Origin: Rhizoclosmatium globosum
Lineage: Eukaryota; Chytridiomycota; Chytridiomycetes; Chytridiales; Chytriomycetaceae
DNA: 64,000 nucleotides
NCBI GenBank assembly: GCA_002104985.1
Contig: MCGO01000062.1
Coordinates: 186,001-250,000, forward strand
Reading direction: 5' to 3'
This document shows, piece after piece, positions 17,366 through 45,934 of this stretch; the first letter of the stretch is position 1; each line of letters opens with the position of its first letter. The notes beneath the pieces are model-generated. The model saw only the letters and a program-made list of their open reading frames with translations. It was not told the origin of the DNA and did not search any database. The position numbers and the translations under genes are program-made.

Positions 17366-20300
17366 GGAAGGAAACAACACGAAAAAACAATGAAACGCGC
17401 CGGTTCGGGGAAGCAAAAGAAATGGAGACATATTATATTAAACAGAGGTGTTTTTAATGACAGAAGATTGGTGTAAAACAAAAGGAACTTGTTTATTTGA
17501 TATATCAATGGGGTCAATAAATTACAAAGTGTGATTCCTGTGAAAAGTACTGGGTCTTGTGGAATAATTTGAAGTCTGCTGCGGAGAGCGTTGAGGCCAA
17601 CTCTCGAAACGTCAACACCGTCAATCAAAACAGTTCCTTTGGTTGGCTCGACGATTCTGAACAACGCAGTCATCAGGGTGGATTTTCCTGAACCTGTTCG
17701 ACCAACGACTCCAATCTTTTCGCTCCCTTTAATCTCGACTGAAAGATTCTTGATGACAGGATCAAACTTGGACGAATATTTGACTTCAAGATCCTTGATT
17801 GAAATGCGACCTTCTGTTGGCCAAGTGCCTTCAACAGGATCAGAGTCCAAATGGTCAGGTGCCTCACGTTCCAAGTCATTGCAATAAAGACCCAAACGTT
17901 CAGCAGCGACAAAGTCTGACTCCAAACGAGAGAAGGCAGTAATAGAGTTGAAAAACAAATCTCCCAAGCTTCCAACACCATTCAAGGCAAGACCAACAGT
18001 AAATGCGCTCATGTGAGTACCGACAGCAAACAAGACAATGAAGAGGGTGATGGAGCTCAAGCAAACTTGAAGACGGATGGAGAACCAGTTGTATACATTT
18101 TCAAGAGTCCACTCAGGCATAACGACCTTGTCCATAAGCTCACGTTGATGGTGAATCGTGCGAGCACTAACTTGGAATGCTCTGATTGTAGAGCTTCCTC
18201 CGATACATTCAGAAATGTACGCGTTCAACGGGGAACGTTGAAGCGCTGCCAAACGACGGATTTCGCGTTGGTTGGATCGGTACATTTCGAGCAGGTAGTA
18301 ATAGAGGAAGGACAGGAAAAACACAAAGACTTGATAAGAATTAGATATGTATCATTCCATTGACGATTAACTTACTAAGAGTGTAAAGAGTCGAGTATAT
18401 GACTGCTGCAAGGTTTGAAGATCCAAGTGCCAAAAGTACGAAGAAGTTAAGCATATTGTTCCAAATTTGCAAGTCCAGCGTTTCCATATCTTTGGTCATT
18501 CTGTTCAAATGGAAATTGGTACAATTTTCTCAATAACGTCAAGTACTCACCTATTGATAATTCTGCCCAAGGGCTGAGAGTCAAAGAAGGACATAGGCGC
18601 ACGGAAAAGACCAGCCACAGCTTTTGAATGGTATGCCTTAGATGTACGATAAGCAGCAAATTCGATGATTCCAACCATAAACGCTGTTGTGGTTGATTGA
18701 GATTCAATTTAGCAACTAATATGAGCTTACTTCCAAATACAAAAGTAGCAGCAACAACGATGGTGTAGACGGTGATGTAATCAGAAGGACGGAGGCCCCA
18801 ACGTGTAGTTTGACCACCTGTTTGGCGATCTTCCTCCTTCAAAAGTCCCTCCGATTCACCTGTTACACCATCGGCTTTCTTTTCGGTCTTGACAACAGTC
18901 TTTGTTTTCTCGACTTTTGTTGATTCATCTTCAAGCGCATGGTTCTTGAGCATTTCCTTGAGGAGGCCAGTTTCGGGTCCGTTGATGGCAAGTTTCTCGT
19001 AGCTTCCCTGTTCGACAATCACACCCTTGTCCAAAACAATAATGTGGTCGACGTGGGGTAGAACGTGGAGTTGGTGGGTTACCAAAACGCGAGTTTTGCC
19101 ATCAAGCGACTTTTTGATAAGCTCGTCAAAGACGTGTTTGCCGACGTGAGCGTCGAGAGCAGCCAAGGGGTCATCAAGGAGGTAGATATCAGCGTCACTG
19201 TACACGGCACGGGCTGAGGTATGATAATAAGCGAAGACCTTGATTGAAAGGCGAACAATTACCAAGTGAAACACGAGCTTTGTGACCACCAGAGAGTGCA
19301 ATACCCTTCTCACCGATCTCGGTATCCAATCCATGTTGGAACTGCTGAATGTCAACAGCCAATCCGCAAGAATGAATGACATCGTCCAATCGTGATTGGT
19401 TCAGCTCGCGACCAAACAGAATATTACTACGAACATCCATTGACATGATCCAAGTATGTTGTTGACAGAACGCAACGGATCCGTAGACGGAAACTTTCCC
19501 CTCAAGACACGTCATTTCGTCAGTGAGAGCAGAGAGCAAACTCGACTTTCCAGAGCCTGATTAAATAGGTCAGGAAGGGAATACGAAAACAAGGATGGCC
19601 TCACCAACAGTTCCAACAATGGCAGTCAACTTTCCAGCAGCAATCGAAAGATCCAAATCCTTGAACAGAGGCACAATCTCGACAGGGGTTGGTGCGTCAA
19701 CTTGTTTCTTTCCACCCTTCTTTGCTTTCTTATCTGCCTTCTTGTCTTCTTGTTTCTTGGCCTTTTCCTTTTCCTTATCCTTCTCATCCTTGCCTTCTTT
19801 CTTGACCGCTTCCCAACGGATTGTTCCGTTCACAACACTAATTGCCTCTCCCTTTGTAGAATCGCTTGGAGGAAGAGTGACAAACTCAGATTCATCAGCC
19901 AACATGAACTTGCGGATACGATTCCATGAGACAAGAGCCGATGAAATACCAGCGACAATCATGGGGAGTGCTTGCATTGGTTCGAAAATGTTGAAGAAGT
20001 ATGTTGTGGCTGGGAACAAGACGGCTGGATCCAACACAGAAACACGCGAAGCTGAATATAAATAGCGATTAGTCATGAAATATCTAATAAGTTTGAGCAC
20101 TTTACCATAAACCATAAAAGTTCCGATCATCATTCCATATGGCACAACCAAAACCATAAACACGAATCCAAACAACCCAATAAGCATTCCAAACACAGCC
20201 TTCAACTGCGTTTGACGCACATCACTCAACACTTTGGTGAAATAACTTTCTTGGCCTCGCATTTTGATCATTTTCATGCCTTCAAGAATCTCACGAAGGC

Positions 20301-20697
20301 GAGCAAGACGATCGTCTCCTGACTTCATGTATTTCTCCTGCGATGTGATGATCAAAAACATGAGGCCTTGCGCCATGAGGAGAAAAACACCAGCAACGAT
20401 TCCAACGGGATACAAGCCGGAACCAAACAGAGTAGACAGGTAGTAGAACGAGAAGGCGAGTTGGAAAGGAACAAGAAGAATTTGATGTGTGGAGTGGACG
20501 GCTTCTGCGAGAGTTGGGACGTCAACGTTGACGATTTGGAGGATTCGTCCCTTTGTGAATTCAGTAGCACTTGCGTTTGAGAGTTTGAGTGATTTGGCAT
20601 AGATAGCAGTCATGATTGTGCTTCGGATGTTGATCAAAGCGTTAACAGATGTGTATATGTAAGCAATTTAATCAAAACTCAACTTGTAACGCATCGA
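17366..20697 (-). pseudogene. Inverted, broken copy of the ABCC transporter
   Basis: High-identity inverted copy of about 911-4867. It lacks exon 1 (start codon and first TM segments), where it is joined to aconitase sequence at 20697/20698. It carries a 147-bp in-frame deletion that removes the first TM helix of TMD2 (counterpart of about 2788-2934; junction near 18820). It also has a ~479-bp deletion that cuts NBD2 after VLFTG and joins it, out of frame, to the last few codons (junction near 17537), removing signature LSVGQ and Walker B. Introns are retained at the same places, so the copy arose from DNA, not from cDNA. Confidence 0.92.
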
Positions 20698-21837
20698 TCC
20701 GTGGTGCACTTTCCTTGAACTTTAACAAGAACCTTCAAGTTTTCCATGTCGCGACCGTTCCATGCATCGAATGGTTCGAGGACTTGGAGACGTTGGGAGG
20801 CTGGGTCGATTGTGATTTGGACGGATTCATCAGGTTGTGGGGTTGCGGAGGGCTTGAATTCAAGGCGACCTGTGACAAATGGTTAAAGTGGGATTCAAAC
20901 TCAGGACTTTTGACAAACCAGCGTCGAAGCCTTTGGAGGGCAAAGAGTCACCAGTTGGTGGAGCAGCTTGAATGGCTTTCCGTCCTTGTCATTCAGAGTA
21001 TCCGTGATTGGCTTGAAGCTCAAACGACCTGAGAGAGCCATGGAAGTAACAATCTGAAAAGGGTTTTTAAAAAAGACTGTTTTGCTAAATTGACGCAGAC
21101 GCTAATACCTCAGGTGAAGCCAAAAAGTTCATTGTCTTGTTAGATCCATCGTTCTGGCTTTGAAGTTTCGGTTGAAGGACGTCAAGATGGAGTTTTGCTC
21201 ATTCTTGACTGGATCCGTTCTGTTCCATTGACCGATACCTGATATCAATAGTTATTAAGATTGATGCGTTAGAATAGGAACAAAAAAAATAAACGTACAC
21301 ATGGTCCACAAGCGTTGGCGAGAACCTTTCCTCCAATTTGTTCCAAATCCTCAGTAATGCCATCACGAGCAATTGTGGCACGAACTTGCTCGGAACCAGG
21401 AGTAACCAAAAACTCGGCGGTGGTTTTGATTCCATGTGCCTTTGCTTGACGAGCAATGGAGGACACACGGCTCATGTCTTCGTAAGACGAGCTGGTACAG
21501 GATCCAATGAGACCAGCAGACACCACATCGTTCCATCCGTTTTTCTTGATCAAGTCCTTGAATTGGGAGATTGGTGTGGTCGCATCTATTGCATTGGTTA
21601 GACTCAGATAGAGTCAGATGGGAGGTAAAAAAAGGGGCATACCAGGAGTGAACGGCCCGTTAATGTGTGGCTCGACAGTCGACAAGTCAATTTCAATGAC
21701 TTTGTCGTATTCGCAACCAGCATCAGCCTTCAAGAGCCCTTCGGCCAAGTATTTGTCAGAGGCATCAGCAGTCTCACTTCGTCCAGTTGAACGCAAGTAG
21801 CTAGCCATTCCCGCATTGTATGGGAACACAGACGTTG
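20698..21837 (-). pseudogene. Partial aconitase copy
   Basis: Copy of 10429-11565, keeping introns. It lacks the 3' end of the gene (beyond the block containing TTDHIS) and about 900 bp of the 5' part. Single-base deletions relative to the intact gene (GGAGCAGCTT near 20964; the TCGTTCTGG run near 21153) break the frame. At 21837 it is joined directly to the start region of the bioF-type gene. Confidence 0.9.
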
Positions 21838-21894
21838 CGGGGCGGTGGACCATTTGTCTTGAAGCGAGTGAGTGAGTTGGCGACAAAGAAAAAG

Positions 21895-23343
21895 ATGGCA
21901 AGAATCACGCTCGACTCGCTGCTTTCTACCGCTCTAAACAGACGGCGATCGGAAAACCTGCTGAGAACACTGGTCATTCAACCACAAGATGCAAGGGACT
22001 TTGCTTCAAACGACTACCTGGGTCTGGCCCGCTCAACTCAGCTGCACTGTCGATTCCTTGCTGCTCTAAACAGCGAATTGGAATCGAATCTAGAAATAGA
22101 AGGGAAAGTACTGGGTGGGAGCACAGGCTCAAGACTTCTCTCAGGCAACTCTGCAACAGCCGTCAACCTTGAAGCCTTCCTTGCGCATTTCCACAATGCT
22201 GAAACTGCTTTGTTGTTTAATTCGGGCTATGATGCAAATCTGGGCCTGTTTGCTACTTTGCCTCACCCGGGATCTTCCGTTCTCTTCGATGAGTTGGTTC
22301 ATGCCAGTGTCCATGACGGCCTCCGTCAGTGCCGAAAGGGCGTTGTCATTCAAAAATGGAGGCATAATAACGTTGGTCATCTCGAAGAGCTTGTATGGGA
22401 CCAGGTTGCTCGGATAGAATCAAATGCATCCGTCTATTCACAGTTACCTGGTATCATTGTCGTTGTCGAGTCTATTTATTCAATGGATGGGGATATCGCT
22501 CCTCTGAAACAAATTGTGAATCTGATGGACAAGGTTGGAGAACGGGCGGGCGGTCTGCATTTGATTGTGGATGAAGCTCATTCAACTGGAGTTTGCGGAC
22601 CTCAAGGACGAGGACTCGTCTGTCAGCTTGGACTGGAAGATAGAGTTTTCGCTCGGCTGCATACATTTGGAAAAGCTGTTGGCGCGCACGGAGGTATATC
22701 GTCGTAATCCATTTCCTGTGCCAAACAAGGAAGCCTAAATCTCAACCATTCAGCTGTTGTTCTTGGTTCATCAACTCTGCGCGAATTTTTGGTGAATTAT
22801 GCAAGACCACTTGTGTATTCAACATCTCTTCCAATGCATTCGCTCATTGCTATTCGATGCGCATATGAATTCATGCAAGAAGAAGCAGAAAATGTGAGCA
22901 ATCAACATGTTTGCCATCGATTCGTGTTCCTGACAGATCTCCCCCCAGCTCCAACACAAGCTGACACAAACGATCAAACACTTTCGTGCACAACTTAAGT
23001 TGATATTACCATCTGGAATCGAGTCAATCGATTCCCTCACAGCAATTCAAGGAATAATAGTACCAGGTACTCATAAGTCGATTCTTCAATCCAACTACTT
23101 CATTTATAGCAAATCAATTCAACAGGAAACAAACGCGTTTCGCAAGTATGCTCATACCTTCAAAGTAAATGTTACGATGTGAGGCCAATTCGTTCACCAA
23201 CCGTTCCTAAGGGATCAGAGCGCCTTCGAATCTGTCTGCATGCTCACAATTCTGTCGATGAGATTACTGGGCTGATTCGAGAGATTGCAATTGCGTGCAC
23301 AAACATTCGTGACACTGAGATGGCATCCTTGTCGAAACTATGA
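21895..23343 (+). CDS. 8-amino-7-oxononanoate synthase-like PLP enzyme (bioF type), 428 aa, 4 exons
   Basis: Belongs to the alpha-oxoamine synthase family (8-amino-7-oxononanoate synthase, KBL, ALAS and SPT share the fold). These enzymes condense an amino acid with an acyl thioester and lose CO2; the AON-synthase reading (pimeloyl thioester plus alanine, biotin synthesis) is the best fit but not proven. Exons are 21895-22693, 22754-22893, 22937-23066 and 23126-23343. Family blocks: FASNDYLGLARS near residue 40, GSTGSRLLSGN, LFNSGYDAN, DELVHASVHDG, DEAHSTGVCGP, Schiff-base lysine in TFGKAVGAHG, IVPGN, and the C-terminal DVRPIRSPTVPKGSERLRIC. No clear targeting signal. A truncated twin lies at 12520-13530. 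The third intron's acceptor was fixed by the conserved IVPGN-to-VRPIR spacing. Confidence 0.88.
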
Positions 23344-30059: not shown

Positions 30060-30156
30060 ATTACACAATTGCAACAAACGCTGGTCGCGTCTCTGACTGG
30101 GTAGGATGCAACCCCAATTGCACAAGCACTAGTCGCGTCTCTGACTGGGTAGAATG
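30060..30156. repeat. 48-bp minisatellite, copia target site
   Basis: The block CGCGTCTCTGACTGGGTA occurs at 30086 and again at 30134 (period 48), joined by GGATGCAACCCCAATTGCACAAGCAC-like sequence. A third partial unit lies upstream (AATTGCAACAAACGCTGGT) and the continuation reappears after the 3' LTR at 42980 (GAATGCAACCCCAATAGCAC). The copia element therefore landed inside a short tandem repeat. Confidence 0.7.
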
Positions 30157-30274
30157 TGCTGAATGCAAACACTGTTTTATTATGACTGTGCCACATATAA
30201 TAAAGACACAAGTTTTTCCCCAAAACTCGCATTACGTCAACTATCGCACCAATCCGCCCAACTACATTACAGCA
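30157..30274 (+). repeat. 5' LTR of the copia element (118 bp)
   Basis: Starts TGCTGAATGCAAACACTG and ends CTACATTACAGCA. It contains an AATAAAG polyadenylation-like signal near 30200. Very short for an LTR. Two mismatches to the 3' LTR. Confidence 0.92.
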
Positions 30275-30288
30275 GATTAAGAGCTCAT

Positions 30289-32316
30289 ATGTCTCACCAC
30301 GAAATCAAGTACAAGTTCTTCGTTCTCAGCGATTACCGCAGAGAGAATCTCGAAACATTCAAGGTACATCACAACAACCCATACTGCCCATCTCTACCCA
30401 ACACTCCCATCACAACCCATCACGACCACCCTGAACAACATACATCAAACCTGAGAAATCGAACGCGAAGATAAAACAACACGGGATCGAGCAAAGTAAA
30501 CCTAGCGAAACTCGAAAATAGAATATGAGCGAAAACGACATCTGAAACAGCAAACACACCCAACGGAAAGGAAGGTAACACAAAGGTAAATGTAAGAAAA
30601 GAGGGAAGTATAAAAGAGACCAAAAGAGACCAAAAGAGATAAAAGAAAAGAAAAGAAAGAGAGAAACAAACATAAGTAAAAGGAGGAAAGGAAACACAGA
30701 GCAACAAAGCGAAAATGAGCTGAGAGCAAAACCCATAAAAACAGAATAGAAACAATTAACACGAAAACAAACAGAAAGGACTCATCTCCTACGCGTCTGA
30801 GAAAGACTCCCACCCAACTTGTGACACAAAATGCATCAACGAAACCCTCAACTTAGGCATCGACGAAAACGCAGCCATCGCCAAACACCTGAACAACTCC
30901 GCCACTCCTATTGAAAAACTCAAGTGGGTCCTGGCAAACTTCATCCCACACGAAGGGAAGTACTACCAGCTCTTGGACGACGACAACACAAAGATGGTCT
31001 TCCCTGGCACTCGAAAGATGAACAACATCGCCATAGGACTAATCCGCAATCACACCGTTGGGAATGTACACACCCTCATCAAAGACCTCAACTTCGCCCA
31101 CGAAGCCATCTCCGCCATTGAAGCACAAGTCTCTGCATTGGAATCCTCCAACTCCAAAAAGACACACAACGCCTACGTGAACATCCAAATGAACAATGGA
31201 GAAACGGCTTCCGCTTACATTGCCCGATTCAGTACCCTCTACGCCTCAGCCAAAGTTTCTGGTATGAGATATGAACGACCACAACCCAACACACTAAAAC
31301 CACGCAACAGGAAAGAAAATTACCGCTTACTCTGAACAACTGGACGAAAAATGGGCATTCGGAGTTTCCCTCGACGGAATGAACGACGTCAAAACGTTCA
31401 AGCCGTTTGTACTGCAACACCGCAACACGTTCAGCGTTGGGAAAAAGGGACTCGTCAACATCTAAGCCAAACTGCAACAATTCGCCGGTGAAGAAAACGA
31501 CCAACAGCCACCGCCAACCGCCACAGCCAACACAGTGGTCCAACCCGATCAACCACTTCACCACGACCCCTACGTAAACGTCGTACTACAACAGTTCCCC
31601 ACCCAAAACCCAAACTGGAATCAAAATCCCGCCCTCCACCTAATCGCAAACGCCATGGGACCTTGCCCACCATTCAGGCCACAAATCCCAACACCATTCA
31701 TGTATGCCGCAAACAGAATCAACCCACCCGCCCCTACCCAACCATCAACCAACAGCAACCCCAACCCCAACCTCTACCCACACCCAACCAACCCAGGCCT
31801 AATGATCAACCGCGCATACCACAGAAGATTCCTCAAAGATGGCGTCACCCCAAACCCTCACTTCCTACCCGCAACAGCAACTCGGCCTATTCCACTCGGA
31901 AACCCCTCGCACCTCCAACAATACCACCCGTATCAACGATCTCCTGGTATCCGTCCACCCTCAAATGCAACCACACCACCAGCCAGACCACCACGACCAC
32001 CAAACTCTGGCCTCTGCTTCACCTGTGGGGAACCGGGACACATCGCTATCAATTGCCCCATCGAACAGCAAACGTCGCCGCATCCTTCGACCAATCAATG
32101 TACTACCAACCCTTCCCCATAAACCCCCACTATTACGACCTATACAAGTACTACGACAATCAGCAACAATACGACGAATACAATGCCTACAACTCACATC
32201 CAAACGAAGTGAAAGCGCAACAACAGCAACAGCAGGATGACAAGCCAGATTGGATGAAACACGCCGAACAGGAAGGAGATCAGGATTTTGAATCAGCCCA
32301 CGGAGAGCGTGGGTAA
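30289..32316 (+). CDS. copia gag with intron-like gaps
   Basis: Capsid/nucleocapsid protein of the element. It starts MSHHEIKYKFFVLSDYR, then a 411-bp gap (30364-30774) bounded by GTACAT and AACAG, then the capsid-like part, a 49-bp gap (31262-31310), and a Pro/Gln/Asn-rich region with a CCHC zinc knuckle (CFTCGEPGHIAINC, near 32010). There is one in-frame TAA at 31463-31465 and a frame change near 32060-32100. The 3' part is Gln-rich and ends in a TAA (32314-32316) that lies in the same frame as the following protease, so gag and pol are separated by a single stop codon. Confidence 0.75.
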
Positions 32317-32334
32317 TGGACAAGGAAGATGACT

Positions 32335-35241
32335 ACAAACCCACAAGCCACCAACCAACGCACACCCCACCACCAAAACCTCACCAACATCGACCCACTA
32401 CCTGTCCCTGCCCTCTCCAAACTCGCCGCATCCATATCACCCTCAGAAACCGACAAAACCTGCCACGCTGTAATGATTGACACTGGAGCAAGTAAGCACA
32501 ATACACTACACACAACACACAACTAAACCCACCCAGACCTAGAAGTAGTCCGTGACAAGAAATACTTCAAAACCTTCACCCAATACCCCCGACCCAAACC
32601 CATCAGAATATCCGCCAACGCCTCTGCCATCATGGCCCACGGCCACGGCCATGCTGTCATACCCACTAAAGGAATCAACAACAAAGTCATCTCAATCAAC
32701 CTGTATAACGCCATATACTCCCCCTCTGCACCAGCCACTCTTGTTCCCCAAAAGGTAATAAACAATATATACCAATAACCAATAACATACTCTCCCCAGT
32801 CATTAAACAAACAAAACCTCTACTACTTTGGCTACGACGACCAATCATCCCACGAGTCCTCCATCTGGATCTACCAGAAGGGAATCTCCCCAAACCGCGA
32901 GAAGGACACCAAACTCATCGATATCCGCTGCAAATATGGCCTACCCTTCATCCCCACCATCGACGAACCACCAAGGTCCACACAGTATTACGGATCAGTC
33001 CACTCTTCATTCACGAAAGTCCGCCCGTCAGCCATGTCCAGCCTCACCCGCAAATACCTCTTGGACCTCAAAAACACACTGTCCTTCAACACGGAACGAA
33101 CACACAAAATCCTGGGACATATATCATACGACTGCCTTTGGTACATGATTTGTCACAGGACCACAGCTGACCTACCAATCTCAGTCGCCATTGACCCAGA
33201 ATGCACATGCCCTGACTGCACAAAAGGTAAATCAAAACAATGAAAAGTACCCCTCTAACACAAACCAAACCAGGCAAAAAACAGAGAGCCCCGTTCCCAT
33301 CTCTCCCGCCAAACACCAACAACCTCGGCGCAACCCTTCACGTCGACGTTGCCAAACTTGGGAAAGACCGATTCGGAAACCAGTACTTTGTCATTGTCGT
33401 TGATGATCGCTCAAGGAAATCATGGGTCTACCCTCTAAAACACAAGAGCGACGCACTCGTGGCTGTGATTCAACTCATTGAACAACTGCACGCATCAATA
33501 GACCGACCAACAAGAGTGCAACATATCCGCATGGACCGAGGAGAACTCTTCTCCACATCCTTTCATAACTACTGTGCCGCCAACAACATCACCATTGAAC
33601 CAACCCTCCAGAAAACACCAGAGCAAGATGGAGTCGCAGAGTCCCACATCCAAACCATATGCGATATCATGAGAACGTTCATAGCCGGGGCACCAAACCT
33701 ATCCGCCAACGACTGGGACGTCGCACTCCCACACTCCAACGAAATCAAAAACAAGCAACCAGGTACAAAAACATCACCACCCAAACCCCATCTTAACTAG
33801 TTCAACAGTAACCAGCCGAGACGTCTTCTCCCCCAACGAGGAATGGTCAGGTTACGCCCCTTACGTATCGCACTACCAAGTGTTCGGATCTGCTGTCGAA
33901 TACCACCTCGAGAAATCCGACACCACAAAACAAAACCCAGCAGACGGCACCAAGACAACCCGCAACAAATTGGATCCAAAAACCGCACCAGCTGTGTACG
34001 TGGGACACCTCTCCAGAACCCATGTCAAACTCATTGACATTGCTTCTGGCAAGTTCATCACGCGACGCCACGCAGACTGCTATCCCCTCCCGAAAAGTTG
34101 GACCTGGTAGCACCGACGCCACCACCCCCGAAGTCATCGCACACCAACTCAACGCACTATCGCAAGAAGACCTCAACACTGCAAACCAACAAATCAATAT
34201 ATTCCTGAAAAGGAAGGAGCGATTCAAGAATGACCCCCTCAACCCTGCTACACTGAAGGTGAGGAAAACAGCATGCCACACAAAAACACTAACCACCACA
34301 AAGGATATGAACAGAAAAGCACTCATGCCCGAACCAGCAACAACACGCAAACAAAAACTGAAGCGAAAGCAGCAAAACAAAAACGACGTACTGACAACAA
34401 CATCCTCCAAATCTCCAAACAAACCCCACCCACCTCACAAGCCACCTCCGAACCAACTCCTCAACCCATACCATCCGACGACCCCCCTTCAACAGTCGAC
34501 AAACCCCCTGACCGCACAAGTGCCCAACGCCCACGCCGATCCAACACCAACTATGACGAAATCGACGGTAACAATGATGACACGTCAGAGAGCGAATCAC
34601 AAGAATCTGATCAGGATGGAGAATGGACCCCTGGCCTCAACAGCCTCGTCGCCACAATATGCCGCACCCTCAACCTACCCAACCCCAAAAACCCCACTGA
34701 AGACTCACTCGCCGAACTCCTTCGAAAAATACACATCCAACCTCAAGGAAACCGAATCCACAACCCAGAAGCACGCTTCCGGCAATCGTCAAGCATCATG
34801 CCAGAACATGACGAAGACGACACAATAGCCTACACTGAAGACCTACTCACTGGTAAGAAAAATCAGCCTGGAAACCTGCTTGCTAATAGTCCCAAAACAG
34901 GATGGACAGTATTCAACCACACTGACCAACTCCCAGGCGACAACCCCCTATCCGATCAACTACCAAAGTATGTGCCACTTGAAGACCAATCCCCACGCAA
35001 CCGAAAAGCAGCTATGGCAAGCCCCTGGAAGTACTTTTGGCTCCGTGCAGAAGAGGAAGAAAAGAACTCGCTCAAAGGAATGGGAACGTTTCTTCCCTGC
35101 TCTATCAGCAACCTACCCCCTGGATCAAATATAGTCGGATGCAAATGGGTATACAAGGTTAAACTCAACGCAGATGGAACAGTGGAAAGGTTCAAAGCCC
35201 GACTTGTGGCACAAGGCTTCACCCAACGATTTGGCATCAAC
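32335..35241 (+). CDS. copia pol, part 1: protease, integrase, start of RT
   Basis: The protease active site DTGA lies at about 32480-32491, followed by a 45-bp gap (32492-32536). Next come a GAG-pre-integrase zinc region (ERTHKILGHI...CTCPDCTKG) and the integrase core with D (HVDVAKLGKD), D (RMDRGELFS) and E (EQDGVAESH). A long Pro/Thr/Lys-rich linker precedes the RT start (GCKWVYKVKLNADGTVERFK). Further intron-like gaps: 32755-32799, 33227-33273, 33763-33808, 34259-34314 and 34853-34900. Removing each keeps frame, except for an unexplained shift near 34085. The reading frame stops where the Plavaka element enters at 35244. Confidence 0.8.
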
Positions 35242-35259
35242 TACATCTGTAGACTCAAG

Positions 35260-35520
35260 AAATGCACTTTATTATATTTAATTGTATTTAAATGAATTGC
35301 AATGTAGGCAATGTCAACCATGTGTCCCCCCCCCCCCCCCCCCCCCCCCCTCCCCTTTTTGAGATATTGGCAATGCAAACAATTATGGCAATGCACTAGC
35401 AATGCATGAGCAATGTATGAGCAATGCATGAGCAAATCACAAGCAATGTATGAGCTGTGTACTAGAAGACTAACAGTAATGCATCAGCAATGTATTAGCA
35501 ATATGCTGGATTTGTATTGG
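35260..35520. repeat. Subterminal GCAATG repeats and a C25 tract at the left end of the Plavaka element
   Basis: GCAATG or a one-base variant recurs about a dozen times (for example TGAGCAATGTATGAGCAATG around 35407-35430). Such clustered subterminal repeats are typical transposase-binding sites in CACTA-like elements. A run of 25 C lies at 35326-35350, which may also be an assembly or sequencing weak point. At the right end (41120-41340) related CAATGCATCGCAATG and ATTGC motifs are sparser. Confidence 0.6.
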
Positions 35521-35673
35521 ACATATATATAAATGAATTTCTCATGAATTAGTCATAAGTTGGCCATACACGAGTGGTGTATTCCAAGGTATGTTAATAA
35601 CATTAACAATTCTGCATAAATACCAATACACTTCATAAATGTTTATTCAAATGGATGAAAATAGAGATAATCT

Positions 35674-38204
35674 TTAGATATTGAATATCTTTCCTCTTTG
35701 AACTGACACAGAGGACTGGAAGCGGTCTTTCATTTTGAGGTAGAAACTTCTTGCACCCTTTCCCAATTCTTCTGAAAGTCCTTCTTCAGCAGGTTCACCG
35801 TTTGTCTGTTTTCCACGTATTCCTTGAATCAGCTGAAAATAAAGACAAGCTGAATCACACCCGCTTTTGAATTCCGCATCTGGAAACGATACTCTGTGAA
35901 GTTGGTGGCGAACCTTCCAACATAAATCAGCACAACATTTCTGAACAGGTAGAACTTACAAGACTAGCCATGGCTGCAAGAGTGTTAAAGTTTCCATCCT
36001 TGATGACTTGTTCAACAGTCACACAGTATCTAAATTGTGAAAGCCCCATGAGACATGCTGCAGCATCCATGAACTGTGGGTTTTGGAACTGGTGAAGTAC
36101 ATCTTCCTCTTCCACTGTTTCAACATGATGAAGAAAGCTACAATGATGGTGAGCAAGCAAAAAGAAACTCCCAAGCACTCACTTTGTGTCATCAATAAGG
36201 TTTTGAGCAAGTTCCTTCTTGGGAGTCAATGTTTTGAGATCCAGCTTGTATGGATCATTCTGATTGAAAGCAGTCCAGAAAGCATGTGCAATGTCTGCAC
36301 GTTGAGCTTGAACTTTTGTTTTGTACTATGACACAACTTAGTGAAAATTAAAAATTGTGGGGATTATACCAATTCATAAATGCCTGTTGGTAGGCTTGAG
36401 ATCCGTTGTTTCACTTCTGAAGCAGTTGCACGTTTCAGCAGCAACCATATACGTTCTTGAGCTTGTCCATCGCCTTGGCCTGTCATGGAAGGGACAAATA
36501 ACAGGAATCGGAGAGAATCCGCTTTAAACAAACGAATGAGATCTTTCTTTTCACTATTTTTTTTCAGTAAAGTCAACAAATTAAGACTCACGTGTCAGTC
36601 ATGACATGGTTCCAAAACCTGTCTCCAGACATTCGAGAGCTGGTCATGCTTTGTCCAATACTTTTCCCACCAACATCATCCGTAACAATCTCATCCTGCT
36701 CTTCATCCTCTTTCGAATTTTCACCAATGTCACAGTCCTCATTGTTCTGATTATCTTCATTGTCTTCCTCTTCCTCTTCGTTGTCTTCCTCTTCCTCCTC
36801 GTTGTCTTCCTCTTCCTCATCGAATACCATTTGTTTGCCATCACCATCACCTTCATCCTCACTAGAGTCCAATCTTTTGGAAGTTGATCTAAATAAAAGA
36901 TATGGTTACTAACAGACTATAGCGAAAGGGAAAGACGGATAGAAGGAGGGTTGATGAGGGGGTTGGAGGGTTAGGGTTTGAGGCACTGCATAATAATTGC
37001 GCTTTGTTGACTATTACACGCCGCGCGCGAAATGGAGATACTATGTGTGAGTATTGTAGCAGTGGCTGGGATGGGGTGAGAGATGGGAGACAAGGGAGAG
37101 ACTGAGAGGGAGAGCCAAGACAACAACAGTTGCGCGAGAGCGAACTAACAGCGCACGACTCTCGCGCAAGTGTTATTGCTGTGGCGCGTCACGGGAGAGG
37201 ATGGGAGCAATGGGTGATGAGTAGGAACCATTGTAATACCCATCATAAGAACACAAACAAGCTGTTTACGTTCTTATGATGGGCGTTACGACGGATATGG
37301 ACGAAGAAGAGGCGTAGATGGTGGAGAGAGGGGCACAGGAAGGCGCGTGGTTTAAAGGGATTGAGCGAGGGGAGCGAGGGGGTCGAGTACAAAGCGAGCG
37401 TCACTGGACGTAGACTGTAGACGCGGGACAGGACATGGTTGGAGGGATGGTTGGTGGTTGAGTAGCTGGGTGGCTGCTGCGAGGCTCGTGCTCAAAGCAG
37501 ACAGCTGCGACAAGAGCAATCGAGAGCGAGCGCACCCGAAAGCGATCTCGCAAACATGCGAGATCGCTTTCGGATGCGCTCGCTGATGACTGAACTCGCC
37601 GGCAGTGTCTTGGTTGTAGCAGGTGGTTGGGTGGCTGAAGGTGACGCGCGTGCTCGAACCAAAGACAGCTGCGACAAGCGCGATCCCGCTGGTTGCGAGA
37701 TCACTTTCGGGTGCGCTCGCTGACTGAACACGCCGGCAGTGCCTTGGTTATAGCATACTTGCAATCACAGCGACCGAGTAGCGATCCCCATCCGCAATGG
37801 ATCGCAAACTTGTGACCGCCGCAATCGCTAGCGCCGACACTGGGAGGATGGGACAGGGGTGAGGGTGAGAGGATAGAGGAGGAGAGGGGGAGGAGGAGAG
37901 TAGAGGAAGAGAGGGGTGTGTAGATAAGATTTACTCACCCTTTCACGAAAATGCGTCTGTTTGTTTCGAAGACAGGTTTGAGTGCGGATCTACTTTGTAA
38001 TGAGTAAAGACCTTTAACGACAGCTTGATCTTACCTTTTAGTGGCCATTGCCTTCCCTTTTCTCTCAGCGTTCCTTTCCAATGCAGCCAATTTCAAGCGC
38101 AAAGTATTGATGGCTTTCTCCGTAGCCTTAGGATTTGATCCTTTGGTAATTGGAATCTTGCCTTTGGAACCTTTCTGCTTCTTGAGGCTCAACTTTGGGG
38201 GCAT
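35674..38204 (-). CDS. Accessory protein of the Plavaka element, 394 aa, 7 exons
   Basis: Exons (minus): 38035-38204, 37939-37992, 36592-36888, 36370-36553, 36183-36325, 35960-36137 and 35674-35832; all phases agree to 394 residues. The N-terminus is Lys-rich (MPPKLSLKKQKGSKGKIP, then a short helix LRLKLAALERNAERKGKAM). Exon 3 codes an extremely acidic run (EEEEDNEEEEEDNEEEEED). The remainder is a soluble, probably helical region (SVSVQRGKIFNI at the end). I recognise no catalytic motif. By position it is the second gene of a two-gene element, like the DNA-binding partner (TnpA-type) of CACTA elements, but no homology is visible. Its second intron (36889-37938) is 1,050 bp, against about 45 bp elsewhere, and full of inverted repeats. 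Confidence 0.7.
36889..37938 (-). repeat. GC-rich, hairpin-rich 1-kb intron inside the accessory gene
   Basis: Contains three strong inverted repeats: TTGCGCGAGAG with loop at 37130-37169; CCCATCATAAGAAC / GTTCTTATGATGGG at 37239-37283 (perfect 14 bp, 17-nt loop); and a 28-bp arm pair at 37525-37584 with one mismatch and a 4-nt loop. The unit starting TGCGAGATCGCTTTCGG at 37557 is repeated directly at 37694 (about 62 bp). It may be a nested MITE-like insertion or a structural or regulatory segment. Confidence 0.65.
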
Positions 38205-38246
38205 TGATGAAGGCAAATTTGAATGAAAAAATTCCAACAAAAATCA

Positions 38247-41064
38247 ATGACGCCTTTCAGGTGCCACTTCAACTGCCGAAAAACGTTCAACACAAAAGAC
38301 GCGCTTGGGCGCCATATGACGTCAAAACACAAAAACTATCTGCGGCAACGTCTGGACGAAGAAACGGTCTTCTCCGATGAGATTGTCGATGTCGAAAATC
38401 TCACCTTCAACACTGACGCAATCATGGAAGAAGTTGGACTCAACAACACAGAAGGTACAAATAAAGAGGAAGCTGAGCAAGACTATGACGATGGGGATGA
38501 TGATGGGAAGATTCAACACGGTTTGACAAATAACAATCGATTGTTGTTAAACATATGATAGGTACTCCAATCGATAACGTCGTGTATAATTTAAAAGAAA
38601 GCATTCTTCCACGTGTAAAACAAGCCTTTTCAAACGCCGACTTGAATGTGATGAAACACATGATTTTGGATAATCCAATGGGACAAACTGCAATTACCAA
38701 GGTGCTAAAATTTTACAAGCCGCAATTACAAAAAAATGCTGTTCCATCATTTGAAAGTGGAAAGAAATTACACAAAGCATTAGACGCATTTAAGACAATC
38801 AATATTGTGAGTTTGAAAATAATGTTGTGAATATAACAAATCATAGGATTTCAAACCAGTAGTCATCCCACTGTCCCTAATTGTTAAAAACATGCATCAA
38901 AAGTACGAACTGAAGGCCAGGAAGGCATACCGACAAAAACCTGTCACCATTCCACTTAGGTCTTTGAAGAAGCTAATTATCAATAAGCTTAAAGATTGCA
39001 CTATTGCAAATGCCTTTAAATATAAACATGAAAAGCAATACGATGAAGCTGGGAATCGGCTCTATGATGAAGCTTTCTCTTCTGATTACTGTGAAGAGCT
39101 TGAAAATCATTTGCCAGAGGCAGGAACAGTGCTTCTGTTAATTTTTGGATCCGACAAAGCCCTTGCTACTAAAATAGGAAAGCAGTCATTTCATCCACTT
39201 GTTGTTTCATTTGGAAATCTACTGAAAAGTCACCGAAAAAAACTTGCTAATATTGCGAGTATGTTGGTTACTTATCTCCCAGTTGTTTCTGGCCAAACGT
39301 CTTTTGACAGTGGTGGGGACTTTCTACGCGAATATACTCGTGCTGTCCACCATGCAGCTTTATCAATTATTTTGGCCGAGATACATGATTGGGTTGACAG
39401 TGGTGTTGAACTTGTTAGCCCTGATGGCCGAAATCGTATATTTTATCCGTCATTGTTCAACTATAATTTGGACTATTCAGAAGGCATGATGGTTTCAACT
39501 GGTAGTCAAAACAACAAGATGTCTCCTATGCCATGCTGCTTTATACCCAAAAATTATTTGAGTGAATGTGGAAAGTCATGTGCAACATGGACGCTCAAAA
39601 CAACAGAAGTCATTCAACAACATTTCAAAAACGCAATGAGTAAAGAAACAGAAAACGCAATGAGAAAAGCTTTTGCATCTAAAGGTCAAATGCCATTTGT
39701 TAGAAATGCATTTTAAGAATTGCACAAACACTCTTCTCGATCGTGCTATAACTGCCGACCCATTGCATTCAATCTACATTGGCATTTTCAGGTACCATTT
39801 ATGGCCGTTCACAAAGCAAATCATTCTTGCAAAGCATGGACCAGATGGATTGAAGTTAATGGATACGCGATTTTCGGCAGTTCCATCGTATCCAGGTTTC
39901 AATTCTTTCTCAAAAGGGGTGTCAAAGCTCAGCAAACTCACCAAAAAAGACTATTCAAGCATAATGATGGGACTTTTGCCCTGTATTGTTGATCTTGTAC
40001 CGGTTGACTGTGTTCTCTGTTTACGAACTTTGCTTGATATTGCCATCATGATTGCTTCGACTTGTCACACCAGTGATTCCTTGGATGCACTGAAGGAGAA
40101 ACTTCAGCAATTTGAAGAAGAAGTTGAGTTCTTCAAAATTCTGGGCAAAGACATGAACTTCCCAAAAATGCACATTCTGGCAACATTTGTAGATGCAATT
40201 AAAAAGTTTGGTGCCTCAGATTCATATGGTACAGAGCACTTGGAGTCAACGCAACGAGTTAACGTTGTGTCTGCGTACCAAAACACAAATAGAAAGAACT
40301 CAGAAGCTCAAATGATACGATATGTGACACGAAAAGAGAAGGTACTCCTTATCACTAAGCTTGTTGAATTGTCAGAGAATGTGAACGCCACTCCCTTGCT
40401 TTGGGTCAATACAAAAGCTCAGTACTCATTATGTGCTCCTATCAAGTCCATTTACTTCAGGGAATACGAAAACTCTGATGTTATGTTTATGGGGTTACAG
40501 CAAAAGATAGAGTTCTATGATATTGAAGTTCAACCTGTGAAGGTACAGTGTGTTGTTGGATAAAGGAAAATTTCTAAAAAGAAATAGCACAAATGTTTCC
40601 GGACACTCCGTGTCACAGAATTTGATGAAGACAACAAACCACATGTTGAATTCCTCCGAATTGAATCTTCAAACAGTTCAGCAAATTTTTGCATTTACAA
40701 TAGACAGTTGGTCAAAGCTGTTGCAGTTGACACTGGGTTGGGTGGTAGTAATTACTTAGTTGGACAGGCACTCAAATTTATAAGTGTGAGCCACCAAACG
40801 GGAGTCAAACCATTTGTTATTCTAAAGAAGTATAAGCCACTTTCCAAGGTGCACCAAAACAAAACAGGTCTTTTTATTTTGCGTGAAGCAGGTAGACAAG
40901 AGCCAAGCCAAGGTATAATTGTTGCACCATTGGAAGCCATAGAGGGAAGGGCTCACATTATTCCATACTTTCAAGACGGCATTGAGGGAGATACAGGCAG
41001 AGTATACCTAAACACATATGCAGAGCGTAATTTGTGGTCAAAAATATGTTACAGCACTGATTGA
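38247..41064 (+). CDS. Plavaka transposase, about 896 aa, 4 exons, one frameshift
   Basis: Exons 38247-38520, 38562-38806, 38847-40542 and 40588-41064. The N-terminus has a C2H2 zinc finger (FRCHFNCRK...LGRHMTSKH) followed by an acidic linker. The core shows the Plavaka/KDZ-like transposase pattern: a conserved LLLIFGSDKALATKIG block, MLVTYLPV, AEIHDWVDSGVELVSPDGR, ADPLHSIYIGIFRYHL (the 'TPDLLHQ..G' equivalent), the late NFPKMHI block, and SYGTEHLESTQRVNVVSAYQ, equivalent to 'GYNTExxExxH'. A run of four T at 39711-39714 puts the reading frame out by one; with three T the frame would continue, so this copy is either just inactivated or carries a homopolymer error. Its start lies 42 bp from the divergent accessory-gene start. 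Confidence 0.85.
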
Positions 41065-41377
41065 GCTCCGCATTATTACTTTGGACTCCTTTCTGTGAAT
41101 TCATTCAAATAATATTTCAATCTATTACCAATATATTGCTAATTCAAATATTAGACTCTTAATAAATTCAAACACATTTTCGTCATTTTGCACATCGTTC
41201 ATATGTTATGATGTATCAGGAATGTCTCAACAATGCATCGCAATGCAACGTCAATGGATTGTTCATTTGTTGCTGATGAGCCAAACACATTAACCACATT
41301 TCAAGCACATTTCAAGACATCAACAATATCAATAATTTATTGTAATACATGGCATTAACAGGTGCAGTTTCCTGATG
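41065..41377. other. Right terminal region of the Plavaka element
   Basis: Non-coding, AT-rich, with CATTTCAAGCACATTTCAAG-type short repeats and the right terminus. No gene. Confidence 0.5.
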
Positions 41378-42817
41378 TACTCTGAGGTTTATTCCCCCGT
41401 TATCAGGCGCGCCACTTTCCGACTCTACCTGGCACTGTGCGCTAAGAAAAAGTGGTCGAACAGAATGATCACTATCTCATCAGCATACCTCCACGGCGTC
41501 CTTGATGAAGTCATCTTCATGCGCCCACCAGAGGGATACGGACTACCAGAAGGGATGGTACTTCAATTGGTCAAAGGACTTTACGGACTAAAGCAAGCCG
41601 GTCGATTATGGTACAACACACTCGTTGCACACCTGAAATCATGTGGATACACACAGTCACGAGCCGACCCCTGCAACTTCTTCAAAAAACTGAACGGAAA
41701 AGAAGTGTTTATTCTATCTTATGTGGACAACTTGTGCCTATTTGGAGACGGCCCCATGATCAATCAAGCCATCGCCGACATCAAATCAGCATTCAAAATC
41801 CGGGACCTAGGACCCATCAAACTATGCCTGGGAATTGAAGTAGAACAGACACAAGAAGGAATCTACATCCACCAATCCAAATACATCTCCACTATCCTTG
41901 ACCGATTCAAACCATATTTAGACAACTTCACAGCCACACATCAACCCCCCACTGCTCACACGCACCAATCACCGTCACGCAAAAGAATCATAACAACACC
42001 AATCCCTTCAACTGCGCGCGTCCAGCCAAAACTCAGCCCCTCTGATCACCTGTATCACCCCACAGCCGACCAGCCATTTGACCGGGAAATCTACCAGGAA
42101 GCACTTGGTTGCCTCAACTATTTAACAATCAACACTCGACCTGACTTATCCGTTGCTCTCTCAATATACTCAAGCTTTACTCAAGATCCAGCACTGAAAC
42201 ACTGGGACGGACTCATGCACGTATTCCAGTATATCAAAGATACCCGATTCCTCTCCATATTTTACGACGCAAACCACCCTTCTTCGGATCCCATTGGTGC
42301 AGCCGACGCGTCATTCGCAATGAACCACGATAGTCGATCACAAATTGGCTACCTTGTCCAACTTGCCAGAGGAGCTATATCCTGGAAATCTTCCAAACCC
42401 GCATCCACCATCCTTTCCGCTTCAGAAGCCGAATACATTGCAGTGTCGGAACTCGGTCGTGAGATTCAAGCCATTATCAATATATACGTTGCCTGTGGAC
42501 TACTACTGCATGGACCAATATCAGTACTTGAGGACAACCGTGCGGTTCACAGTATGTGCGTCAGTGATACTTACACTAACCGCTCAAAACACATCAACAT
42601 CCGTTATCACCACATTCGTGACCTGGTCCACCATAAACTAGTACATCTCCTTGATACACGGTCAGAAGACCAAATCGTGGACATCCTTACCAAGCCTCTC
42701 GGACCAATTAAGTTCATCCGCCCTCGCGAGTTACTTGGACTCAAATTACTCCCTGCTCATCTTCTTCAGATTGTTCGCAGCTGCCTTCAAGAATACTCCA
42801 GCGCCATCAACACATAA
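41378..42817 (+). CDS. copia pol, part 2: reverse transcriptase and RNase H
   Basis: Continues the copia RT directly after the Plavaka insertion (SEVYSPVIRRATFRLYLALC...). Landmarks: LVKGLYGLKQAGRLWY, the catalytic-loop position YVDN (normally YVDD), IRDLGPIKLCLGIEV, YQEALGCLNYLTINTRPDL. RNase H landmarks: AADASFAMNHDSRSQIGYLV, SWKSSKPASTILSASEAEYIA and EDNRAVHSM. The first RT aspartate block (normally MDVxSAYLxG) reads TISSAYLHG. Stop at 42815-42817. No intron-like gap is present in this part, unlike the 5' two thirds. Confidence 0.88.
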   Translation, partial: YSEVYSPVIRRATFRLYLALCAKKKWSNRMITISSAYLHGVLDEVIFMRPPEGYGLPEGMVLQLVKGLYGLKQAGRLWYNTLVAHLKSCGYTQSRADPCNFFKKLNGKEVFILSYVDNLCLFGDGPMINQAIADIKSAFKIRDLGPIKLCLGIEVEQTQEGIYIHQSKYISTILDRFKPYLDNFTATHQPPTAHTHQSPSRKRIITTPIPSTARVQPKLSPSDHLYHPTADQPFDREIYQEALGCLNYLTINTRPDLSVALSIYSSFTQDPALKHWDGLMHVFQYIKDTRFLSIFYDANHPSSDPIGAADASFAMNHDSRSQIGYLVQLARGAISWKSSKPASTILSASEAEYIAVSELGREIQAIINIYVACGLLLHGPISVLEDNRAVHSMCVSDTYTNRSKHINIRYHHIRDLVHHKLVHLLDTRSEDQIVDILTKPLGPIKFIRPRELLGLKLLPAHLLQIVRSCLQEYSSAINT

Positions 42818-42849
42818 ACTAACCCACAGCCGCGTTTGTCCAATCAGTG

Positions 42850-42861
42850 TTTGGAGGGGAG
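42850..42861 (+). other. Polypurine tract of the copia element
   Basis: TTTGGAGGGGAG immediately precedes the TG of the 3' LTR, as expected for the plus-strand primer. Confidence 0.7.
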
Positions 42862-42979
42862 TGCTGAATGCAAACACTGTTTTATTATGACTGTGCCACA
42901 TATAATAAAGACACAAGTTTTTCCCCAAAACTCGCATTACGTCAACTATCACACCGATCCGCCCAACTACATTACAGCA
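42862..42979 (+). repeat. 3' LTR of the copia element (118 bp)
   Basis: TGCTGAATG...TTACAGCA; 116 of 118 bases match the 5' LTR. Followed by the GAATG target duplicate. Confidence 0.92.
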
Positions 42980-43107: not shown

Positions 43108-43836
43108 TTGAGAAAAGAATCAGGACTGAGGATTGGAAACCCAAATGTCCTCCTAGCGTCTAATCCAGAAGAAATTCTGACCCTAGGGATGGATGTCATG
43201 CCGGGAATAGGAATCAGACTCACAGGCCTGTCAGCGGCAGGAGACACTCCCCGCCGGCGCCTTTTGAAACCGAGACAGCTCAAGCAAGTGTTTCCAGAAG
43301 CAAAGTTATCAGGAGGACAAAATTTAGACAAAAACGCCAAGATCAATCTATGGGCCAAAACCACAATCGAGGGAGCTGAAGTCCAAATCACCTTTATTGA
43401 CAGCGCAAACCTGTCATGGATTCGACAATACAAGATACCAGCGAAACAAGAGGCAGCGGTTGAAGCAGCAATTGCAAAGTGGCTAGCAGAAGGGAGCAAC
43501 GTGGAGATGTCAGGGCTATCAGACTGGAACGCTCCCATAATTGCGCCGCCAAGGATTGTGAACGGCAAAATTGCGAAGATTCGAGTCTGTTTAGACGTGA
43601 GAGCCCTAAACTCACAGACGGTTGATTACCGCCGCGAGTTCCCAAACTGTCGCGATGCTCTGGAGACAATCATGGATTCAAATATCTTCTCAACAATTGA
43701 TCTGGAAGGCGCCTACCAGCAATGCTCAATCCACCTGGATCAAAGACATCTCACATCCTTCACGTGGAAAGGAAAGAGATACGAATTCCAATTGCCACCC
43801 TTTGGTTTGAAGAATATGCCAGTACCATTTGCATCC
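43108..43836 (+). pseudogene. Ty3/gypsy pol fragment 1: end of protease and N-terminal RT
   Basis: 5'-truncated pol. It begins in protease-like sequence (ILTLGMDVMPGIGIRLTGLS) and runs into a Ty3/gypsy RT (YKIPAKQEAAVEAAIAKWL, APPRIVNGKIAKIRVCLDVR, DSNIFSTIDLEGAYQQ, FQLPPFGLKNMP) with the first catalytic Asp (TIDLEGAY) intact. At 43836 it stops abruptly at minus-strand copia sequence, before the xxDD box. Confidence 0.85.
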
Positions 43837-45934
43837 TACAACGTTAGTGCCAGGAGGCTTTTCAACCAGCGTAAAGGTACCAGTGTCCCGTAATTGTTTA
43901 AGTTTGTAGGCCTCAGCAGTAACCCATTCGGACTTGTCAGGTCTGGAAAGTGCTTCCTTTCTGTCTGCTTGTTTTGCTAACCAATCTTGTCCAAACTCTG
44001 TGATAGCTTCAGGATTGGTAGGATCTAGTGCTGAGAGTAATGAGGTTGGATCATGGTCTGTAGTGCCATAGTAGTTGTTTGTGTACTCGGCAGAAACTGG
44101 ATCTGGTTTTGGAATGATCCAGGTGTTGTGAGAGGCAGTGATTCTCTTTGTTTGAGATGGTTTGTTGTATGGTTTGTGTTGGGAGATAGTACTTTTTATC
44201 TTTGACGCGGTCTAAGGTGACATTGAGTTTAGTAATGTATTTTGAGATTGCAACAGGGAATTTGGACGTGATTGTTTTTCACAAAGTGCAGGATGTAAAT
44301 ACGCGTCGCGCTTAGATGTAATGCGTATTGAGTGCGTGAGGGATGTGCTTAATTGTAAATGTAATTTCCCAATTTATGTGGTGCAAGGATTTGGCCGTTA
44401 AATCCGCAGACGGAATATGTAAACCAGATATCATGGTTGTTTGTGATGCATATTGAGGGTGAAGGGAAAAGTTGATCAGACCTTGGGCTTTTCCTTGGAC
44501 ACATTCCTCAATTCAAGTGCGTTGATGGCTTTTTGGACAGCTTTTGCTGGTGGTGGTGGAGGCTCATAACGACGTAATGCGTCAAGTGTGGAGTCAGATA
44601 GTGTGGCTTGTTTGATTGCCAGTCGTTTGAGAACAGCTGACATGACTTTGGCATCAACTGTTGTAGAGTCCAGATTGTTAACATTTCGTATGAAGAGACC
44701 AGAGTTTTCTGAGTCTTGTGTGTATGGAGCGCTATATGTGATGGTGGTATGCCAGGAAACTTAGATTCGTCAAATTTACAATCTCTGAAGTTTCTTATAA
44801 GAAGCTTGCCGGGTTTAACAAGGCTTGGTGATTGACATCCAACATAAGTTGCAGCTCTAGCGCGTGGATCCATTTTTGACTTTGTGTCGGAGGCATAAAG
44901 GAGGTACCATACTTGGCATCCAAATGTGCGTATGTGACTGGTAAGTGGTGCCATACCATAGTATAATTCATAGGGAGATTTGATATCTCGTGATACCACT
45001 GGGATCATAAGAGCTCTGGCCATTTTTGTTATGGTTTGGAATGCACGCTCAATTTTACTGTCTGATGATGGTGTTTTTGAGCTGTGACTTGCAGGTCTAT
45101 GCCGCGTGCTTTGCAGTATTCGCGAAAGGAGTGTGAGCTTCCGAGTTCTCCGTCAACTCTCACAAATTTGGGTTTATGCCCATGAATTTCAATTGCGTTT
45201 TCCAAGATTCTCATTAAGTTGACCAAAGTTTCATCTTTGTGCTCATGGTTGTATTTGAAAAACATGTCAGAGCCTTGATCGATTCCACCAGTCAGGTATG
45301 GAATCTTGTTTTCGTGCGGCAGTGAAATGGACAGAGTATCAAATGACCAGAATTGACCAACTGGATAAGTTTGTGATGGTTTCCCCTTAACAGGATTATG
45401 GTTAGCCGTAGATTGATGACAGATTTCACAGTTAAGATCCTTTGTGGATATCTTGATTGGAACAAGATATGTGGATGTATTCTTATTCTGCATGTATGCA
45501 ATTCTGCTAACAGCAGCGTGGCCAAGTCGTCTGTGGCGTAGGAGTAGTTCCTGTAATTCGTGATGACGACAAGTGGCTATCCTTTCCAGTTGTTCAGACG
45601 TAAGGTCAGAGACTTTTAGTGTTGACAGTTTAGCTGTAAGTAGAGCATAATGGCTTGTAGGCTCTGTGAGTTGGTCTGATTCCTTTGTCGGGAGAAAGTG
45701 AAGACCGTAAACCTTTTTGGTTGTTGCAACAACAATGTGGTTATCCAAAGGATTGTTGCTGATTGATTTCATTATGTATCCAGGTTTGTTGCCCATGGAG
45801 ACAAAATGGTATCCACTAGTTTCAATAACATTAATGGAGAGAAGATGTGTTGTCACATCTGGTGCATATTTTGCATTGTGCAATGTGATAGTGTGTCCAT
45901 TAGGGAGTTTGATAACGGCTGTGCCGGTACCAAG
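43837..45934 (-). pseudogene. copia-2 pol: protease end, integrase, start of RT
   Basis: Landmarks: TVIKL-type protease tail (LPNGHTITLHNAKYAPDVTTHLLS), pre-integrase RHRRLGHAAVSRIAYMQ...CEICHQS, integrase D (FWSFDTLSIS) and D (FVRVDGELGS). A frameshift near 45030 separates the last integrase part (SPYELYYGMAPLTSHIRTFGC), and later shifts and stops precede the truncated RT start. Not functional. Confidence 0.78.

Follow-up and report, generated by a model that had tools for sequence, protein, structure and literature searches.

The 64-kb window analysed here, that is the whole stretch of 64,000 nucleotides taken from contig MCGO01000062.1 of the chytrid Rhizoclosmatium globosum, contains a copia long terminal repeat (LTR) retrotransposon at 30157-42979 which very probably represents a seven-intron element whose unspliced RNA would be its genome and whose spliced RNA would be its message, with the spliced RNA excluded from copying. 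Seven introns are supported for the family of this element (family A), six of which are left in the window copy (Table 1); the set would consist of one intron of 411-472 bp just past the leader and six of 45-49 bp, situated in both gag and pol. An earlier sequence-only reading of the window had proposed that full-length unspliced RNA serves as genome and that spliced RNA makes protein, and this proposal is supported by five separate insertions, three of family A and two of a sister subfamily B, which have kept introns and which each possess their own target site duplication (TSD).

DNA searches of the 56.9-Mb assembly, in which only the best candidates were scored and copy counts are thus lower bounds, revealed at least three copies of family A, all with introns, namely the window copy, L010 (on C389) and L048 (on C334). 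In addition, C46 holds a 463-bp piece of gag that has suffered an internal deletion, and the LTR search yielded one solitary LTR match on C411. The TSDs of the three copies are different (GAATG, AAAAG and GAGAA, respectively), their LTR pairs are identical at 116/118, 119/119 and 119/119 positions, and the similarity between them stops within a few bases of the LTRs. As the flanks are unlike and the TSDs differ, the copies are the result of separate integrations, and spread by DNA duplication is ruled out on the same grounds. Introns i1 to i6 occupy the same places in all three copies, and the presence of the same introns in copies with different TSDs indicates that the introns travel with retrotransposition; gaps at differing positions, which the sequence-only reading had named as the mark of random indels, were not found for these six in L010 or L048. 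Subfamily B displays 62-64% identity to A in the reverse transcriptase (RT) and is joined to it with a support of 100/100 in an RT tree constructed from 19 of the 120 proteins listed together with 12 rows taken from the R. globosum genome, the RT of L010 being omitted as its frame is broken. The B copies L009 and L011 carry TSDs of their own (CATAC and GTAGT) and have both retained i1 and i5 along with a B-specific protease intron (171 versus 172 in length), while L012 and L013 share flanks and were counted as one insertion. Among the RT matches carrying an organism name the best were Chytriomyces confervae proteins at 39-47% identity, higher-scoring matches being without an organism name, and the C. 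confervae RTs group in the tree with another copia lineage of the R. globosum genome.

The placement of the introns was assessed by a junction test in which all frame-keeping, stop-free cuts within 12 nt of the proposed ends were scored against an intronless relative, at the five sites for which such a relative is available (i1 and i5 were excluded since B has them too). The GT-AG cut ranked first of 209 at i3, first of 209 at i4 and first of 208 at i6 (with four ties at each of the latter two), and second of 130 at i6b, a seventh intron that the sequence-only reading had missed; the protein of the relative thus fits the GT-AG cut at rank 1 or 2 at four of the five testable sites. Intron i6b, of 47 bp, is located between the C-terminal part of the integrase and the linker in L010 (5335-5381) and L048, and is gone from the window copy owing to a 73-bp deletion near 34081, which took the intron along with flanking codons. 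In the relatives the introns are precisely absent: the gag frame of L009 is uninterrupted at the i2 site, i4 and i6b are absent from L009 and L011, these being the two B copies that hold the sites, and all four B copies read through the i6 site. Removal of i3, which had been claimed to restore the DTGA protease motif, indeed yields DTGAN as in L009, which reads DTGANSEIIRD without a gap. Intron i5, on the other hand, is found at the same place in three of three A and four of four B copies (48-49 bp in B where measured), and L009 and L011 also have an intron of the same phase at the i1 site, the first exon of L009 comprising 26 codons as compared to 25 in A. The length of i1 is 411 bp in the window, 462 bp in L010, 472 bp in L048 and 372 bp in L009, the surplus bases of the A copies all being at one place; differences of 1 nt between copies were observed at i4, i5 and the B protease intron, with the flanking exons staying matched. 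The short introns of the element (45-49 bp, GTA...CAG) resemble in length nine host introns of aconitase, ABC transporter, BioF-like and CCT genes (44-79 bp, GT...AG), the ends of which were placed by reading frame, a tenth host intron being left out. With their GT...AG ends, the host-like length of the short ones and, apart from i1 and i5, which B shares, their precise absence in relatives, albeit weakly at i2, i1 to i6 appear to hold up as spliceosomal introns, and we infer that they are spliced.

Eight gaps had been put forward as introns, of which the six just described stand, one is rejected and one is probably coding. The 56-bp gap at 34259-34314 was rejected as an intron since an open frame runs through it in L010 (5326-6969) and L048 (5403-6173) and its removal breaks their frame; it had the appearance of a gap because of a single-base deletion, present only in the window copy, just downstream. 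The gap at 34853-34900 is not needed as an intron, being in frame and stop-free, and as subfamily B is coding there it is probably coding rather than intronic. No intron-size insertion was found in the 1.4-kb RT frame that follows a nested Plavaka transposon when the window copy, L010 and L009 were compared. In unspliced form, the gag frame (read from the gag start only) stops after 61 codons in all three A copies and after 47 in L009, and four of the short introns hold an in-frame stop in L010.

The comparison of the two subfamilies also bears on how the introns came about. Intron-free paralogues had been suggested as a check and were found in part, since B lacks i2, i3, i4, i6 and i6b and keeps i1 and i5. 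In L017 (lineage D) the region from protease to integrase is a single open frame of 574 aa, and L021 (lineage E) comprises a single uninterrupted frame of 1579 aa; because the D and E frames are uninterrupted, a gain of five introns in A gives the shorter history (8 versus 10 events on the RT tree). Most simply, then, the introns would have turned over within the element lineage, the five unshared ones having been gained after the A/B split. The alternative, to which we give a minor but real share of the probability, is that the ancestor possessed all introns, with partly spliced RNA and recombination accounting for the loss of i2-i4 and i6-i6b from B; it would explain why the introns missing from B fall into two groups of neighbours, a pattern that could arise if the template was switched twice to or from spliced cDNA, and it is disfavoured by the intronless frames of L017 and L021 and by the longer count of events. 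A further possible intron, between integrase and RT, was noticed in L016 (~6180-6580) and in L017 and L018 (read reversed, ~6330-6760), where a conserved AAGGTCTGATCAAC closes the integrase frame and is separated by ~230-300 nt from the start of the RT frame, which comes after an ACTAAA...AG stretch. Chytrids are intron-rich according to the accessible part of PMC8476143, and in that of PMC9860276 most reports of introners concern aquatic taxa. An introner origin was rejected in so far as the six short introns, which were compared among themselves only, are mutually no more alike than shuffles (of 200 shuffles, a fraction of 0.215 attains the observed similarity of the best pair and 0.17 that of the mean).

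The exons bear the signature of purifying selection. Across ten indel-free exon blocks of the window copy and L010, the proportion of synonymous differences (pS) was 0.0765 and that of nonsynonymous differences (pN) 0.0148, a ratio of 0.19, and pN was below pS in every one of the ten; against L048, where gaps cost one block and two others were incomplete, the ratio was 0.20. These values cover the frames outside the indel stretches at the gag end and protease start, in part of the integrase-RT linker and in the middle of the RT frame. In the five short introns compared between the window and L010, 7 of 232 sites differ, in addition to two 1-nt indels. Low pN/pS on both sides of the introns implies that the encoded proteins were under selection, which also makes it quite unlikely that family A is non-autonomous and depended for its movement in trans on enzymes supplied by another copia element, with the introns as passengers: such a history would suit the lack of any intact A copy, and L048, whose LTRs are identical and flanked by a TSD although most of its RT is missing, may have moved in trans, but it may equally have been deleted after insertion, and the proteins were evidently selected while the lineage replicated. 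It is very improbable that the gaps are merely decay, that is indels and stops in dead copies descended from one broken master. All three A copies are indeed damaged, and the gap at 34259-34314 did prove to be decay combined with misreading; however, the other gaps coincide between the three copies whereas the frame-breaking damage is copy-specific, i1 and i5 are common to a subfamily as distant as B, the GT-AG cuts at i3, i4, i6 and i6b agree with the intronless relatives, and the selection extends over all ten exon blocks. That the frame is kept by recoding (frameshifting or bypassing) is the least probable explanation, for although Gag and Pol are in different frames, such that some recoding or reinitiation is used at one place, we know of no recoding signal that fits six separate stretches of 45-49 nt, all GTA...CAG, of which four contain an in-frame stop in L010 and two tolerate 1-nt changes in length.

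In the cycle that we propose, the transcript would be exported from the nucleus in two forms, unspliced and spliced. The unspliced RNA would be packaged and reverse transcribed, a role assigned to it because only the 61 codons mentioned above are readable from the gag start, while the spliced RNA would act as message for Gag and, by way of a -1 gag/pol overlap (through TAATG or a frameshift), for Pol. Provided that the introns are spliced at all, such a division between genome and message would follow from their presence in the copies that have jumped, and since every full copy found retains its introns, the spliced RNA would have to be barred from being copied. A stronger version, to which we assign an even chance, holds that the division of labour is complete, genomic RNA never being translated and the message never being replicated, with the result that introns are not purged and are gained over time as in a host gene. 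Retroviruses may be cited for one way of keeping spliced RNA out of particles, namely an intron-borne packaging signal. The sequence-only reading had further suggested that splicing might set the Gag:Pol ratio; this is not supported, as gag and pol are in different frames with a TAATG overlap and introns occur within both genes, and the ratio is probably set at the overlap rather than by the introns. The TAATG motif is present in all three A copies, and in both of those whose pol frame is unbroken at this point it ends gag while its ATG opens the pol frame (-1); similarly, the pol frame of L009 is -1 relative to the zinc-knuckle frame. In L016, L017 and L018 the end of gag is at GGGTTTTTA, after which comes a hairpin-like inverted repeat, an arrangement which we take to resemble a classical -1 frameshift site.

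Several observations weigh against this interpretation. The GT-AG cut at i2 ranked only 17 of 198, homology being weak there, and a CTRAY branch motif was found in one of six short A introns as compared to six of nine host introns. The composition of the element introns (A 45, C 33, G 8, T 14%) is unlike that of the host introns (A 23, C 25, G 16, T 35%); it leans in the direction of the fourfold sites of the element (A 34, C 40, G 9, T 17%) as opposed to those of the host (A 27, C 24, G 18, T 31%), which may reflect long residence in the element genome. Damage is present in all three A copies, with no intact one among them, which makes present activity of the family no more than possible; the damage in the window copy includes one in-frame stop and two small frame-shifting deletions in 31311-32491. 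In addition, a structured packaging signal in i1 was considered and rejected, since i1 does not fold unusually in either A (z 0.81) or B (z 0.49) and so gives no independent sign of such a signal; no Rfam family was matched.

Parts of the proposed cycle have precedents. According to the accessible text of PMC3735527 and PMC12786077, the plant copia elements BARE1 and EVADE keep an intron in their genomic RNA while some transcripts are spliced, and BARE uses separate RNA pools for translation and replication. The chytrid element would share with BARE1 and EVADE, as they are described there, the copia class and the intron kept in genomic RNA; in the plant elements, splicing removes one stretch to give a Gag-only message and the full-length transcript encodes Gag-Pol, whereas the chytrid element has seven introns across gag and pol and an unspliced RNA that is readable from the gag start only up to the early stop. 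A truncation to Gag of the plant type is also not what removal of the introns would yield, as that of i2 joins gag to gag and that of i3 to i6b joins pol to pol. Splicing of Drosophila copia is named in the accessible text of PMC3735527. Drosophila copia resembles the chytrid element in belonging to the copia superfamily and in having a spliced subgenomic RNA. It employs a single splice that favours Gag, and its full-length RNA is a single open frame. In the plant Ty3/gypsy element Ogre, splicing occurs between open reading frames, as stated in the available portions of PMC3735527 and PMC12786077. Ogre is like the chytrid element in possessing a coding-region intron whose removal links a downstream frame. 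It is gypsy-type, with one intron and none in gag. Penelope-like elements keep introns on retrotransposition; as far as the accessible text of PMC3846280 goes, they encode another class of RT and a GIY-YIG endonuclease and are proposed to use an antisense or self-primed template, whereas the chytrid element has LTRs, an integrase and 5-bp TSDs. For Cer1 and retroviruses, unspliced genomic RNA is exported and packaged (PMC10309623, in the part available), a need that the chytrid element would share; there, Gag-Pol too is translated from the unspliced RNA, and other messages arise by splicing. In the chytrid element the unspliced frame stops at 61 codons in A and 47 in L009, and only 44 bp separate the RT frame from the 3' LTR, an organization different from the retroviral type of splicing. 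BARE1, EVADE, copia, Ogre, Cer1 and Penelope, to judge from the portions of the sources available, each show one part, be it splicing, distinct RNA pools or intron retention, and several introns in both gag and pol are described in these portions for none of them. No title or abstract among the matches listed concerned a multi-intron copia element, in a search whose reach mostly did not extend to the subscription literature.

The assignment of the element to Ty1/copia (Pseudoviridae), already made in the sequence-only reading, is corroborated by the order of its domains, with the integrase (rve, 33276-33761) upstream of the RT (RVT_2, 34903-35250 and 41375-42814), by a TG...CA LTR pair and a 5-bp TSD in the window copy and two sister copies, by zf-CCHC (E 1.5e-6) in gag and by the protease motif DTGA. 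When the ten exon pieces were searched apart, zf-CCHC, Pol_BBD, rve, SH3_retrovirus and RVT_2 were each matched piecewise and four of the ten pieces had no Pfam match; the protease region has its motif but no Pfam protease match, and the frame is long enough for an RNase H, yet no Pfam RNase H match was obtained in 41375-42814 at E 1. The span of 30289-34900 originally given for the element fell short, as the RT resumes beyond the Plavaka insertion and is followed by the 3' LTR; the two RT pieces, ending at 35244 and resuming at 41381, are continuous in L010 and L009, and the uninterrupted insertion site is present in L010. The Plavaka transposase (PF18759, E 4.8e-34) is found in 38892-39713, and GCAATGCATGA-like repeats are seen near the left end of the transposon at 35377-35508. 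The leader next to the 5' LTR reads GATTAAGAGCTCAT, for which no matching tRNA primer was found in the genome, three one-mismatch places elsewhere including no tRNA gene by ARAGORN. The stretch at 30074-30156 is a repeat of two copies spaced by 48 bp, at the end of which the element sits, the TSD GAATG lying within the second copy.

Table 1. Parts of the copia element in the window, with proposed introns (i1 to i6), and the gag ends of related copies
Feature	Position	Strand	Remarks
5' LTR	30157..30274	+	118 bp, TG...CA; 116/118 identical to 42862-42979; GAATG directly upstream
gag exon 1	30289..30363	+	25 codons, ATG start; identical in L010 and L048
Intron i1	30364..30774	+	411 bp, GTACAT...AAACAG, phase 0
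gag exon 2	30775..31261	+	pS 0.253, pN 0.018 versus L010
Intron i2	31262..31310	+	49 bp, GTATGA...CAACAG, phase 1; identical in 3/3 A copies
gag zinc-knuckle exon, gag end, protease start	31311..32491	+	zf-CCHC; TAATG 32314-32318; protease in -1 frame
Intron i3	32492..32536	+	45 bp, GTAAGC...ACCCAG, phase 1; inside protease motif; contains in-frame stop
pol exon after protease motif	32537..32754	+	Pol_BBD E 0.0012, below family cut-off
Intron i4	32755..32799	+	45 bp (46 bp in L010, L048), phase 0
pol exon before integrase core	32800..33226	+	role assigned from its position; no Pfam match; 55% identity with L009 across 142 aa
Intron i5	33227..33273	+	47 bp (48 bp in L010, L048), phase 1
pol exon, integrase core	33274..33762	+	rve E 4.7e-8
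Intron i6	33763..33808	+	46 bp, GTACAA...CAACAG, phase 1
pol exon, SH3_retrovirus	33809..34258	+	deletion scar near 34081
Not an intron	34259..34314	+	56 bp; coding in L010 and L048
Probably coding	34853..34900	+	48 nt, in frame, stop-free; good-looking splice ends
Start of RT	34901..35244	+	RVT_2 E 7e-9
Nested Plavaka DNA transposon	35245..41380	.	6.1 kb, interrupts RT; 3-bp TSD TAC
Rest of RT, then RNase H by position	41381..42817	+	RVT_2 E 6.7e-39; intron-free
3' LTR	42862..42979	+	118 bp; TSD GAATG directly downstream
gag ends at GGGTTTTTA	L017, L018 (read reversed) ~4640-4700; L016 ~4400-4440		

Elsewhere in the window, an ABC transporter gene occurs twice, in opposite orientations (966-4705 and 17335-20637), and a BioF-like gene also occurs twice (12520-13332 and 21820-22707), both kinds of gene being named from their translations, and these pairs appear to constitute a rearranged duplication. 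The right half holds other retroelement fragments, all with matches below the Pfam cut-offs, namely RVT_1 at 43108-43890, gag_pre-integrs with rve at 45029-45883 on the minus strand, and rve at 52004-52705.

Introns are used as laboratory proof of passage through spliced RNA, as they are lost on reverse transcription once spliced. If an LTR element retains seven introns over several jumps, it would need to export, protect and package its unspliced RNA and to exclude the spliced RNA. The long-standing question of how genome and message are separated would thereby become testable in one natural system, as the difference between spliced and unspliced RNA, and intron gain or loss would be traceable between sister subfamilies within one genome; were the division of labour complete, sister subfamilies of one genome would even bear different intron sets. 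The element also serves as a warning that gene finders may mistake elements of this kind for multi-exon host genes.

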